IMG/VR virus record: IMGVR_UViG_3300037541_000317
Coordinates: 1 to 40,386 of that record
Source: a virus
Reading direction: 5' to 3' (one strand)
DNA length: 40,386 nucleotides
Positions 6,451 to 39,651 of the stretch are shown piece by piece. Each line of letters starts with the position of its first letter. The stretch's first letter is position 1. The notes beneath the pieces are model-generated. The model had not been told where the DNA came from. It worked only from the letters and a program-made list of their open reading frames with translations, and did not search any database. Made by a program: the position numbers and the translations under genes.

Positions 6451-6689
6451 CGGACAGACGCCTTATGCGCCGCCTAGAACTGGCCGCTTATCTCGGCATA
6501 GCCTCAAGCACGCTATACGAGTGGATGAGGGCCGGGAGGATACCGAAGCCGCTACCGGGAACGGAGCGGTGGGACCGTGTAGCAGTAGACGCCGCGCTTG
6601 ACCGGATGGCGGGGATAAAGAATGGTGCGCCGGATGACAGGGAAGCCCGAAAAGCGCGGTTCCTTAAATCGCGTTCGAGTGCGGCTTAA
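6447..6689 (+). CDS. AlpA/excisionase-like HTH protein
   Basis: 80 residues from a GTG overlapping the previous stop. RRLELAAYLGIASSTLYEWMRAGRIPKPLPG is the winged-helix MerR/AlpA motif that reads DNA in phage excisionases and AlpA activators. It directly precedes and overlaps the integrase gene by 68 bases, so directing excision is the likely job. Transcriptional control of int is the alternative. Confidence 0.75.
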   Translation: MTDRRLMRRLELAAYLGIASSTLYEWMRAGRIPKPLPGTERWDRVAVDAALDRMAGIKNGAPDDREARKARFLKSRSSAA

Positions 6690-7689
6690 AGACGGCTCGG
6701 TCAAGGTCTACGAGTACGTCCGCAAGCCCAAGGAGCCGTCGCGCCGACTTGTCGCGCGGGGCCATGCATTCCGGCAAATCGCCGTCGCTTATACGAATTC
6801 CCCCGAGTTCAATGGGCTGTCGGAAACGTGGCAAGCCGCGACCCGGTACTATCTCGGCATTCTGGAAAGCCGCCTCGATTGGATGACGACGACGGACTTG
6901 GACGATAGATCGTCGCGGCGGGATTTTTACGAAATCCGAGACGAGTTCGCCGCGACCCCGACCAAGGCCGACAAGCTGATCGGGACGCTATCGACGGCGC
7001 TCGCGTGGGCCTACGAGCGGGGGATGATTCAGATAAATCACGCGCGAGGGATCGACAAACTCGCCCCATCGGCGGGACGCGCGGACAAGATTTGGACGCA
7101 GGATCAAATCGCGGTTCTGTTGGCCCACGCCCCGCCCGACCTGTCGAAACTGGTCCGCATGGCGCTTCTGACGGCGGCAAGGTTGGGGGATTTGCTGGCC
7201 CTGACTTGGGAGCAATTCGACGGGCGGTGGATCGAATACACGCCCGCCAAGACGGCCAAGACGACGGGGGTTGTCGTTCGGCTTCCGGTGTACGAGTTGC
7301 CGCCCCTTGATGCGCTAATGCGGGAATTAGGCCCCTCTACGGGCCACATTCTGACGACGGACGCGCGCGGCATCCCGTGGACGATTCCGAATTTCAATGC
7401 GCGCTGGAAATCGGCCCTAGCGCGGGCGGGGTTGCTATCCGCCGACCGGCACTTTCACGACCTGCGAGGAACGGCGATAACCGGCCTGTTGAACGCGGGC
7501 GCGACGGACGCGGAAACGGCGTCAATATCTGGCCATGCCATCGGGGGGAGGTCCACGCTTCGGGCCTATGCCGCACGCACGGACGAACTGGCCATTTCGG
7601 CGTACCGGAAATTGAATCAGTCCCTATCCGCCCGTCCGGTGATTTTGGCGCTTTCCAAAAATCATCCAAACGGGCGGAAAGGTGCCTAA
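6622..7689 (+). CDS. int: Tyrosine site-specific integrase
   Basis: 355 residues. The catalytic set is complete: Arg187 in LLTAARLGDLLALTW, a Lys in the beta-turn TPAKTAKTTG (about 208-215), His279 and Arg282 in HFHDLRGTA, His305 in SISGHAIGG and Tyr316 in LRAYAAR. The N-terminal arm domain (about 60-140) is helical. It joins attP and attB to set up lysogeny. Last gene of the plus-strand operon. The ATG at 6634 is a possible alternative start. Confidence 0.92.
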   Translation: MVRRMTGKPEKRGSLNRVRVRLKDGSVKVYEYVRKPKEPSRRLVARGHAFRQIAVAYTNSPEFNGLSETWQAATRYYLGILESRLDWMTTTDLDDRSSRRDFYEIRDEFAATPTKADKLIGTLSTALAWAYERGMIQINHARGIDKLAPSAGRADKIWTQDQIAVLLAHAPPDLSKLVRMALLTAARLGDLLALTWEQFDGRWIEYTPAKTAKTTGVVVRLPVYELPPLDALMRELGPSTGHILTTDARGIPWTIPNFNARWKSALARAGLLSADRHFHDLRGTAITGLLNAGATDAETASISGHAIGGRSTLRAYAARTDELAISAYRKLNQSLSARPVILALSKNHPNGRKGA

Positions 7690-35003: not shown

Positions 35004-35314
35004 TTCAAAACCCTCCACTCGATATTCGGATACAGGGCGACGGCGAGCTTCCACTTGAGCTTCCAGTCGCGGGTCTCGAATCCCTTCTGGTCAGCGAGCA
35101 CGCGCTTCCCCTTTTCAAAGAATGCGAAGTCGGGTCGGAGCGCGCATATCTTCGTCCCGTTGACCACGAGGGGCACCGTGACTTGACGCTCTAAGCCGGA
35201 TATCTGACCGGCGCGCTCCAACAGCTTGAGTTCGGACCATCTCCGATACTCGGCCTGCGAATCCCATCGGATGCCGTCGGCGTCTACGAAGGGTTTGTTG
35301 CGGTACTTTTTCAA
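35000..35314 (-). CDS. DUF1064 nuclease-like protein
   Basis: 104 residues. KKYRNKPFVDADGIRWDSQAE, YRRWSELKLLERAGQISGLERQV, LRPDFAFFE and VLADQKGFE carry the conserved words of DUF1064, a PD-(D/E)XK-like family of phage replication modules (Glu in SQAE, Asp in RPDF, D-Q-K). Probably resolves or trims DNA intermediates. Confidence 0.82.
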   Translation of the reverse strand: MKKYRNKPFVDADGIRWDSQAEYRRWSELKLLERAGQISGLERQVTVPLVVNGTKICALRPDFAFFEKGKRVLADQKGFETRDWKLKWKLAVALYPNIEWRVLK

Positions 35315-36201
35315 GCCGCCGCCTCGCGCCCAAACAAGTCATCTTGGCGGTCTTGCGCCTCAAGGTAACGGACGGCCTGCCTCCAATAGCTCTCTTTGAG
35401 TTCCGTTCCGACAAACCGCCGACCGAGTTTGAGCGCCGTCACACCCTCGCTTCCGATCCCAGTAAATGGCGACAAAACGATATCTTCCGGGTTGCTCCAC
35501 ATAATCAGCGCACGCTCGATTACGTCGAGTTGAAGCGGGCACAAATGCCGCTCGTCTCCAGCTTCGCGTGCGGCTTTGACGTTCAAGACGTTGGATTGGT
35601 CTACGCTCATCCATACCGGCGAGGCCCATTCCTGCCACTGATCGAGCGGAAAATTCTCAGGAGTGTGGACGATGGGGGATGCGTTCTCGCCGGGCTTGAT
35701 AAACGTAATCAGATAGTCAGGCATACCGCCGCGCGACTTGCTGCTATCCTTCATAAGTTGCTTGTAAAGAAGCCCGACATGTTTAGTCCGCGTCATTTCA
35801 ACAACCGGGCATTTCCAGATCGTCCGCCGCGAATGCATGATCCATCCGGCGTCTTCATGAATGCGGATAATGTCCCCGGAAAAATCCTTTATCCCAACCG
35901 CGCCGTCCTTCCACTTGGTCATCGGAAGGTCTGAGCAATGCACGGCGGTCAGTCTGCCGGGCTTGGTAACTCGGAACTTTTCTTTCACCAGCCATGCGTA
36001 GTGCTTGGCAAATTCGTCATCGGTCGAATTGCCCATGTCGGCGGCGCTTTCCGAATAGACAAAAAGTGACCCGAACGGCGGCGAATAGACGGAAAAATCA
36101 ATCGACGCATCCGGCATTTGCCGAACGATATCGACGCAATCCCCGTTGTACGCGGCGAACCTTGCGCCGTGCGCCTCGTTTAGGCAGCGGATTTTAGCCA
36201 T
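35311..36201 (-). CDS. Amino-group DNA methyltransferase, beta class
   Basis: 296 residues. Motif IV SPPFG (residues 40-44) comes first and motif I FTGIGSEG (about 248-255) last, the beta order. The SPP(F/Y) form is frequent in N4-cytosine enzymes but also occurs in adenine ones. The target is unknown. It overlaps the helicase gene upstream by 22 bases. Likely protects phage DNA from host restriction. Confidence 0.85.
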   Translation of the reverse strand: MAKIRCLNEAHGARFAAYNGDCVDIVRQMPDASIDFSVYSPPFGSLFVYSESAADMGNSTDDEFAKHYAWLVKEKFRVTKPGRLTAVHCSDLPMTKWKDGAVGIKDFSGDIIRIHEDAGWIMHSRRTIWKCPVVEMTRTKHVGLLYKQLMKDSSKSRGGMPDYLITFIKPGENASPIVHTPENFPLDQWQEWASPVWMSVDQSNVLNVKAAREAGDERHLCPLQLDVIERALIMWSNPEDIVLSPFTGIGSEGVTALKLGRRFVGTELKESYWRQAVRYLEAQDRQDDLFGREAAA

Positions 36202-37568
36202 ATCGGCAGTCTCCCTGTGTGCTTCGGTTCATAAGGAACGCGGGCTAGCCTCTTGGCGTCTTTTGCCCGCACCATTGCCGCCCGCATGGCGATCTTCATT
36301 TTCGCGTGGTCGGCGGTTTTGCGTTCAACAATGCGCCCGATTTCCGCCTCGCCCTCCGCAACGGCGATATGGACTTGAACCTGTCGTTTCTGGCCGAAAC
36401 GCTGGCACCGCCGCACGGCCTGATAAAATGTCTCGTAGCTATACGAGCGCCCAACGAACGCCATTCGCGCGCAATGCGACCAATCGAGCCCAAACCCGGC
36501 AAGCGATGGTTTCGTTATCAAGTGCTGTGCCTGCCCCGTGCCGAATGCCTCAAGCAACTCCTCTTTGCGCTCAGTGGATTGCGAGCCCCGAACTTCGATT
36601 GCAGACGGGATAGCGGCCTTTAGCGCATCGGCCTCATAGTCCGTATCGCACCAGATCAACCACGCTTCGTCCGGCTCGCGTGAAACAACATCGGCAATCG
36701 TCGCGGCTCGCGCCTCACTTGTCTGACGCTTAACCGCGTGCATGTTCGTCGCAGACATGCTGATGGACGCGAAAAGCCCCTCGCCACCCTGAATCGCGCT
36801 GTCCGCCGCGCGGTGACGCTGGATTGCAATCTCGGGCAAAATAAATCCCGTATCGTCTCCCCCGAGATCCGAAGGCAATTCCGCGCAACGAGCCCAAGAC
36901 GCCAGCCAGTCCCAAAAGTCTGCCTCGGCGTGGCCCTTCAAGCGCCATTCCTGACTAGCCGTGCTCGTATCGTTGATAAACCAACGCGAAAGCATTTCAT
37001 TGGCGCGCATGATTTCGAGAAACTCGGCATAGTTCCCGAGCTCCATATGGTCGTTAGGTGCTGGAGTTGCCGTCGCCGCCAGCTTGAACCTATGCCCCCG
37101 GAAAGCCTCGATCAGAGCGCGGGTCGTCTTGCCGGTAAAAGACTTGAGAATTGACGCCTCATCCAACGCGACCGCGCCGAAGTATGCCGGGTCCAATTTG
37201 TCGAGCCGGTCATAGTTGCAAATGTTGATACCGTCGCCCGCGTCGGACTGCTCTCGGATAATCCGCGCCTCATATCCCCAACGCTCAGCGCGACGCTTCG
37301 TCTGCCCGGCGACGGCAAGCGGCGTCAACAAGAGCGCCCGACCGTTCGTCGCCTCGCTGGCGTGCCTGAGATACTCAAGCTGGCATTCCGTCTTGCCGAG
37401 CCCCGTATCGAGGAACAATCCCGCCCCGCCCGCTTCAAGCGCGAACGCAACGGAATGGGCCTGATAGTTGAACAAGTGCGCCGCCAGCGACGGCACAGAC
37501 TTCAGGCCCCGCATCGGCGCGCGGACGGCTTTCGACGCCAGAAATTCAGCGTATTGCTTATCCATCAA
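36180..37568 (-). CDS. SNF2-like DEAD/DEAH-box helicase
   Basis: 462 residues. Motif I FLDTGLGKTECQ (54-60 core), Ia TPLAVAGQT, II LDEAS (136-139), III AATATPAPN, and C-terminal motifs including FGLDWSHC, FVGRSYSYETFYQAVRR and QRFGQKRQV. Overall the layout of phage SNF2-type translocases. Adjacent to two methyltransferases, which recalls helicase-methyltransferase pairs, but a replication helicase is equally plausible. Confidence 0.85.
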   Translation of the reverse strand: MMDKQYAEFLASKAVRAPMRGLKSVPSLAAHLFNYQAHSVAFALEAGGAGLFLDTGLGKTECQLEYLRHASEATNGRALLLTPLAVAGQTKRRAERWGYEARIIREQSDAGDGINICNYDRLDKLDPAYFGAVALDEASILKSFTGKTTRALIEAFRGHRFKLAATATPAPNDHMELGNYAEFLEIMRANEMLSRWFINDTSTASQEWRLKGHAEADFWDWLASWARCAELPSDLGGDDTGFILPEIAIQRHRAADSAIQGGEGLFASISMSATNMHAVKRQTSEARAATIADVVSREPDEAWLIWCDTDYEADALKAAIPSAIEVRGSQSTERKEELLEAFGTGQAQHLITKPSLAGFGLDWSHCARMAFVGRSYSYETFYQAVRRCQRFGQKRQVQVHIAVAEGEAEIGRIVERKTADHAKMKIAMRAAMVRAKDAKRLARVPYEPKHTGRLPIWLKSAA

Positions 37569-38365: not shown

Positions 38366-38775
38366 GCTGCTGCCCTCATGTCTGTGCCGAGTTGTTCGTA
38401 AATTGCGGAAATTCCGCACTCGCTGCGCGCGTAGCGAAGCGGCAACTTGAGCAGGTTCGGGATGTAGCGGGAGCCGTCGTGGCGACTGCGGGGATCGTTC
38501 TCGAACCAGATTTGAAGCGAGGCCCACTTGGCGAGCGCGGCGGCGTCACGGTCGCGGCGCGTCGTCTCGTCGCGGTCGATGAATTCCGGCGCGTCGGCTT
38601 TCGGTGTGCGAAGTGCGCGCTCGGCCTCGCGACGACGGGCCTTGTACGCACGTTCCCGCCTTACGCGGTGTTCGTGCTTCCACGTTAGAACCATGTCGAG
38701 CGGGACGCCGAATTGCTTGGCGATCGAGATAGGCGTGCGACCGCCTTGGAGACATGCGCGCTCGAATGGGGTCAT
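38362..38775 (-). CDS. HTH-containing hypothetical protein
   Basis: 137 residues. The start (TPFERACLQGGRTPISIAKQ, FGVPLDMVLTWKHEHRVRRE) is a helix-turn-helix; an Arg/Ala-rich helical middle follows and the end (WFENDPRSRHDGSRYIPNLL) is a compact conserved-looking piece. The ATG at 38775 overlaps the methyltransferase stop reached after the frameshift (38772), which helps identify that stop as genuine. Confidence 0.65.
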   Translation of the reverse strand: MTPFERACLQGGRTPISIAKQFGVPLDMVLTWKHEHRVRRERAYKARRREAERALRTPKADAPEFIDRDETTRRDRDAAALAKWASLQIWFENDPRSRHDGSRYIPNLLKLPLRYARSECGISAIYEQLGTDMRAAA

Positions 38776-39651
38776 GCGGTCATTCCTTCGGCTTGGGCGA
38801 TGGCGCGGCCAATGAGTTCGGGGATTTGCGGGACGACGGCGTTTCCGAGTGCGGCGATTCGATCAGCGTCCAGTCGAGCGGGAATCCCATCATTTGTTCT
38901 ACGAATCGGGGGTTCAGACGGCCATCCCAGTTCATGCTTAAATTGATTTGCTTCCCGATCTTCATGCGGCGTTGAATGGCCGGATTGGATGGCCCCCCCC
39001 CGGTCGCGATTGTCCGAAGCCTGCGGCGTCGGCAATAGCCCGTTGCGGCGCATCACCCCCCCCATGACGCAACCCCAATTCCCAGTACTCGGCCACGGGC
39101 GCATATTGTTTTGGTCTTGCCTCACGGGCGTAGGCAACAATCCAAATTCGCTCCCGTCGATGATTGGCCCCAAGGTGGGAAGCCGGTATGCAATGCCATT
39201 CCGCATCAAACCCGACTTCGGCCAAGTCCCCGAGTATTCGGCCAAACCATCCGCCAGGTTGTTCACTTGGGCCACCAAGCAACGCTGCGACGTTCTCCAA
39301 GATGATGAAGCGGGGGCGTAAGTCGCGAGCAAGGCGGATGACTTCTCGATAAAGTCCGCTCCGCGTGTCGCCCTCAATTCCAGCTTGGCGACCGGCTTGG
39401 CTAATGTCCTGACAAGGGAACCCGCCGCAGATTGCGTCAACGGCAATTCCATCTGCGGCAAGTCTGTCTGCGGTGAGAGTGCGGATGTCATCGTATTGCG
39501 GAACCTCGGGCCAGTGTTTCGCCAGCACCTTTCGGCAAAAGGGGTCGATCTCGCAGAAGGCGACCGTCTTGAACGCGCCGCTGCGCTCTAGGCCGAGGGA
39601 AAACCCCCCGATCCCGCTGAAAAGGTCGAGCAGGCGAAACGGCTGTTTCAT
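38772..39651 (-). CDS. C5-cytosine DNA methyltransferase, frameshifted at a G tract
   Basis: Motif I LLDLFSGIGGFSLGLE, motif IV CGGFPCQDIS (catalytic Cys80), ENV in FIILENVAALL and motif VIII NHRRERIWIVA are all in the first frame (39651 to 38962). Motif X (RIAALGNAVVPQIPELIG) lies one frame over and ends at 38772, exactly where the next gene starts. Removing one G from the 9-G tract (rc 38993-39001) joins the parts into 292 residues. As written, the enzyme stops after NAA at 38962 and lacks motif X. Either a phase switch in the off state or a homopolymer error. Confidence 0.8.
38780..39491 (-). CDS. Overprinted protein within the methyltransferase gene
   Basis: From the ATG at 39491 in the frame next to the methyltransferase. 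Contains SSSWRTSQRCLV, GTWPKSGLMRNGIAYRLPTL and LLPTPQASDNRDRG, the conserved words of a phage protein family often found with C5 methyltransferases. After the same one-base G-tract change it reads on as PSNPAIQRRMKIGKQINLS... NPRFVEQMMGFPLDWT, the expected end of that family, to a stop at 38780 (236 residues). Function unknown. Confidence 0.65.
38993..39001 (-). repeat. 9-base G tract at the frameshift
   Basis: Nine C on the plus strand. Eight would restore both overlapping reading frames. A second tract of eight C lies at 39056-39063. Confidence 0.85.

Follow-up and report, generated by a model that had tools for sequence, protein, structure and literature searches.

A run of nine Gs (G9) breaks two nested genes at once in the window analyzed here, the complete IMG/VR virus record of 40,386 bases, and these genes very probably encode, as judged from their motifs and relatives, the two parts of one nested C5-cytosine DNA methyltransferase. 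Among relatives of this gene pair, runs of 7 to 12 Gs were found, some in frame and some out of frame, so the run may act as an on/off switch. An earlier note on this DNA had described a methyltransferase plus an overprinted protein, with two G runs as a possible phase switch. The description of the gene pair proved to be correct, as frame A is a C5-methyltransferase and frame B a constrained nested protein; that both genes are already frame-broken at G9 was absent from the note.

The window has a GC content of 61.6%. Besides an integrase the record encodes RecT-like and exonuclease VIII proteins, an endolysin and a portal protein, and this gene content makes a temperate phage the most likely identity. 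In such a phage the methyltransferase of the nested pair would serve as an anti-restriction gene. The features of the window used below are the following:

6622-7689, plus strand: integrase (phrog_1)
35311-36201, minus strand: second DNA methyltransferase-like protein (phrog_67), adjoining a helicase at 36180-37568
38962..39651, minus strand: frame A, C5-cytosine methyltransferase large subunit (alpha-like) with motifs I-VIII (PF00145, phrog_363)
38772..39491, minus strand: frame B (+1), nested protein, which after G9 carries the methyltransferase C-terminus and motif X (phrog_1008 67-175, then phrog_363 253-317)
38780..38965, minus strand: third frame, end of the nested protein, including motif IX (phrog_1008 259-286; B profile 278-338)
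38867..38917, minus strand: motif IX, LNPRFVEQMMGFPLDWT, in the frame of the nested protein (translation)
38796..38846, minus strand: motif X, GNAVVPQIPELIGRAIA, shifted into frame B by the tract
38993-39001, minus strand (reads C9 on the plus strand): G9 tract, site of the frame change of both genes
39056-39063, minus strand (reads C8 on the plus strand): G8 tract, not a break point

Frame A starts at 39651 and stops at 38962, after the G9 tract and before motif X. It matches PF00145 with E=2e-42 at profile positions 1-167 of 324 only, and the translation and this match place the N-terminal catalytic motifs I, IV, VI and VIII in it; the frame A alignment of the relatives (A2) matches M.HhaI. 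Compared with phrog_363 the frame covers positions 52-232, and the lost C-terminus (253-317) was found in frame B. The nested protein is likewise divided: its C-terminus lies in the third frame, not in that of its N-terminus. Motifs IX and X do not occur together in frame A, which stops before both. Using profiles built from the relatives, we found that A and B shift frame at G9 by the identical single-base step, and the profile comparison revealed no further lesion in either gene of the window.

The two runs of nine and eight Gs, 54 bases apart inside the methyltransferase, were confirmed on the coding (minus) strand. Compared with dinucleotide shuffles of the window, runs of at least eight (2 observed, 1.6 expected, P = 0.46) and of at least nine (1 observed, 0.41 expected, P = 0.34) are unremarkable in number at this GC content. 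Only their closeness on the same strand is rare: a same-strand pair of runs of at least eight within 80 bases appeared in 0.25% of the shuffles, by a statistic that was picked post hoc. The idea that G8 is a second switch had to be abandoned. In the nearest relative (locus L082) this segment is interrupted (GGGGGCGG), and in the window the frames agree on either side of G8. The segment GLLPTPQASDNRDRG is still read in frame B between G8 and G9, and GLLPTPxASDNRDRG is read unbroken in frame B downstream of G8. As this DNRDRG-type motif, common to 33 other loci, is still read in frame B 3' of G8, the run cannot be the break point.

For the analysis of frame B, 258 non-redundant loci were collected by searches that started from A alone, from B alone and from other members. 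In all 258, B occupies the +1 frame relative to A. When the synonymous codons of A were shuffled, 500 stops were expected in the +1 frame between motifs IV and X of 143 loci and 44 were observed; loci free of any +1 stop in this region numbered 114, compared with 3.6 expected. In the +2 frame the same shuffling revealed no depletion of stops between motifs IV and X. We relied on the fixed region from motif IV to motif X, since a variant of the test with the borders of the open reading frame itself is circular. The third codon positions of A were examined in 2,593 pairs of relatives, and their divergence was 0.57 before B, 0.37 within the overlap and 0.50 after the stop of B. Depleted +1 stops and damped third-position divergence of A in the overlap identify B as a real, constrained protein. 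The possibility that B is a chance open frame was ruled out by these two tests. Pfam and NCBIfam contain nothing that matches B, and its AlphaFold model is of low confidence (pLDDT 60) with no fold or PDB match; the model of A reached a pLDDT of 79. A scan of one bacterial order detected a close relative of A in 2 of 297 genomes.

In intact relatives motifs I-VIII and X are located in A and motif IX in B. B has a conserved segment, SSWRTSQ...TWPRSGMMRNG, and a conserved end, LNPxWVEWLMGFPxGWT; the latter is methyltransferase motif IX. The same division is known from M.EcoHK31I, which has motifs I-VIII and X on one polypeptide and motif IX on the other (PMC3404938); it is present in the intact relatives and is disrupted in the window by the tract. 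M.EcoHK31I (YGGCCR) differs in being a bacterial restriction-modification enzyme, with a predicted recognition domain assigned to the large subunit, and the phage pair is likened to it by way of the described motif layout. The gene for the small subunit of M.EcoHK31I also lies within that for the large one, in a different frame, and we know of no poly-G tract reported for this enzyme. M.AquI is likewise a C5 enzyme made of two polypeptides, but its small subunit carries motifs IX and X together (PMC3404938), whereas in the intact phage pairs motif X stays in A. In Mycobacterium phage Suarez (gp7/gp6, L195) the large part stops after motif VIII and an overlapping second gene seems to hold motifs IX and X, a plan that looks nearer to that of M.AquI. 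In Paenibacillus larvae phage Lily the annotation of the DNA-cytosine methyltransferase (gp62/gp63) includes a 'g62 internal gene', for which the B profile gave a match; unlike in the window, no G tract was noted in the matched region, and the only function given for the internal gene is DNA methyltransferase.

Single-chain relatives occur in a Rickettsiales MAG and in Candidatus Bandiella numerosa (L180 and L186); in these two loci the motif IX segment lies in frame A, adjoining motif X. Their match to PF00145 is nearly whole-length (2-322 and 4-323, respectively, of 324), compared with a match up to position 177 only for A of the split type. The +1 frame of both (L180:3004-4020 and L186:2747-3766) still has a B-like protein without motif IX, and this arrangement is a possible intermediate of the subunit split. 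For phrog_1008, a family of unclear role, the analysis suggests a function in a nested methyltransferase, as the subunit that supplies motif IX. This family comprises hundreds of phage loci that are mostly unannotated or tagged just 'DNA methyltransferase', and long, strongly constrained overlapping genes can be overlooked in this way by annotation pipelines.

For the count of frame breaks at G runs the two single-chain loci were left out, which leaves 256 loci. At the site of the window tract the run is G2 to G5 in 32 of 34 motif-bearing loci and long only in L082 and in the window. With G8 at this site L082 has both frames open; the window with G9 is out of frame. A search with the exact flanks of the window tract revealed no further alleles, and a degenerate search for the window motif with a long run matched the L082 contig as its sole hit. 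In L095 and L320 the residues RGGPS at this site are spelled with an interrupting C, so the encoded residues do not dictate a pure G run. At a second site, with near-identical flanks, L136 (G9) and L107 (G12) are in frame and L083 (G10) is out of frame. L108 (G9) and L212 (G7) are out of frame at tracts of their own. Thus, all four frame-broken loci, including the window, have a run of at least seven Gs near the break. Breaks occurred in 4 of 12 loci with such a run and in none of the 244 without (Fisher P = 2.8e-6, on the assumption of independent loci, and L083, L107 and L136 are related). Tract-bearing loci are a minority (12/256) and are scattered across lineages. In the overlap seven runs of at least eight Gs were counted, compared with 1.3 expected from the flanking rate and 5.0 under a codon-order shuffle, which is not clearly an excess over the latter; for runs of at least nine the shuffle gave 1.5 and five were observed.

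From these data we propose the following mechanism. A two-subunit C5-cytosine DNA methyltransferase would be formed by A, the large subunit, and B, the small one nested in its +1 frame. The poly-G tract precedes motifs IX and X by a short distance and lies in a segment that is variable in both proteins. The tract would gain and lose bases by slippage. Length changes of three would be harmless to both frames, because G triplets encode glycine in every frame. A change of one or two bases would at once deprive A of motif X and B of motif IX, and because the motifs are split between the nested frames (I-VIII and X in one, IX in the other), one indel would disable both subunits. The G9 of the window would then represent the out-of-frame state, which is presumed to be inactive. 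Reversible switching would then be used, probably so that part of the phage population carries or loses the modification against restriction. The earlier claim that slippage toggles both proteins thus stands for G9, which shifts A and B together and has in-frame and out-of-frame counterparts of varying length in relatives, and falls for G8. For G9 alone, a phase switch is a plausible idea, with more support than was apparent to the earlier reader. That the tract is hypermutable appears probable. Whether G9 is a real off-state in this phage is an even call, and selection for switching is suggested tentatively. Taken together, a two-subunit nested enzyme with a slipping shared tract, reversible switching included, is the overall best explanation, to which we give slightly better than even chances.

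The extra G could also be a homopolymer error in a metagenomic contig, with a true tract that is in frame and two intact subunits. An in-frame G8 at the identical site in L082 is in line with this, as is the lack of another lesion in either frame, and of the remaining three broken loci, L108 and L212 at least are metagenomic contigs, as their IMG identifiers indicate. However, the IMG identifier of L083, the broken locus with G10, points to a contig from an isolate genome, and the frame-intact relatives with G9 and G12 differ by three bases, unlike the usual one-base error. In addition, none of the other 13 PHROG-matched open reading frames of the window appeared split in an unsystematic look. 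We regard an error as rather unlikely. Another explanation holds that drift produced a long G run in a variable segment rich in GC and glycine, that this run slips as homopolymers generally do, and that the methyltransferase is simply left dead, without selection for switching. The codon-order shuffle, which yields nearly as many runs of at least eight Gs as observed, the scattered presence of the tract across lineages and the existence of tract-free loss of the gene pair in mycobacteriophages speak for such a passive loss. It does not readily account for the absence of a second lesion in the broken copies, nor for the lineage of L083, L107 and L136, which keeps its tract pure while the flanks diverge; moreover, the interrupted spelling of RGGPS in L095 and L320 indicates that the protein does not need a pure run. 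On balance passive loss seems unlikely.

Long G runs can promote slippage, and this capacity would also permit a programmed event, transcriptional or ribosomal, at the tract, by which some full-length A and B, or fusions, are made from an out-of-frame template. Only 4 of the 256 loci are out of frame, and A and B are directly open in the remainder, so the family does not require slippage of this kind. We consider programmed slippage at the tract highly improbable. As a family-wide feature, a programmed frameshift was ruled out, since both frames are open in almost every relative.

The favored explanation, the slipping tract shared by both subunits, resembles the poly-G/C phase-variable loci of Campylobacter and Neisseria, including Mod and other methyltransferases, in which a coding poly-G run of about 7 to 12 sets the frame by its length (PMC6321876). 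In a survey of phase variation in Campylobacter a poly-G/C run of at least seven was the working cut-off, and lengths of 9 and 10 were the commonest (PMC6321876). Two characteristics of a poly-G contingency locus were found here as well, namely an intragenic run of at least seven that sets the frame, and in-frame and out-of-frame alleles among the relatives. The bacterial tracts switch a single frame, whereas in the phage two nested C5 frames would switch jointly. A phage contingency locus in which one poly-G run in the overlap switches both nested C5 subunits, so that each population mixes modified and unmodified particles, is conceivable and somewhat doubtful at present. Both nested C5-methyltransferases and poly-G contingency loci have precedents; a single tract that switches both nested subunits of a phage enzyme would be new, and searches of the open-licence literature turned up no report of a tract within a nested pair of this kind. 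If the switch is true, the phage would hedge its anti-restriction modification by phase variation in the bacterial style, with both halves of the enzyme under the control of one homopolymer.

Some further loci deserve mention. In Mycobacterium phage Llama (74/75, L359) a one-base insertion off any homopolymer splits both nested genes, and Jinglebell, Seabastian, Ochi17 and other related phages show a two-piece match as in Llama. As breaks of the Llama type occur away from homopolymers, loss of the gene pair can be plain mutation. A run of 16 Gs was detected outside the methyltransferase overlap on the contig of a close relative (L002:1394 and L097:1234, on the same contig). Finally, L061 has a G10 run in the overlap near motif IV (L061:3228), which is in frame and lies at a site unlike that of the other tracts.
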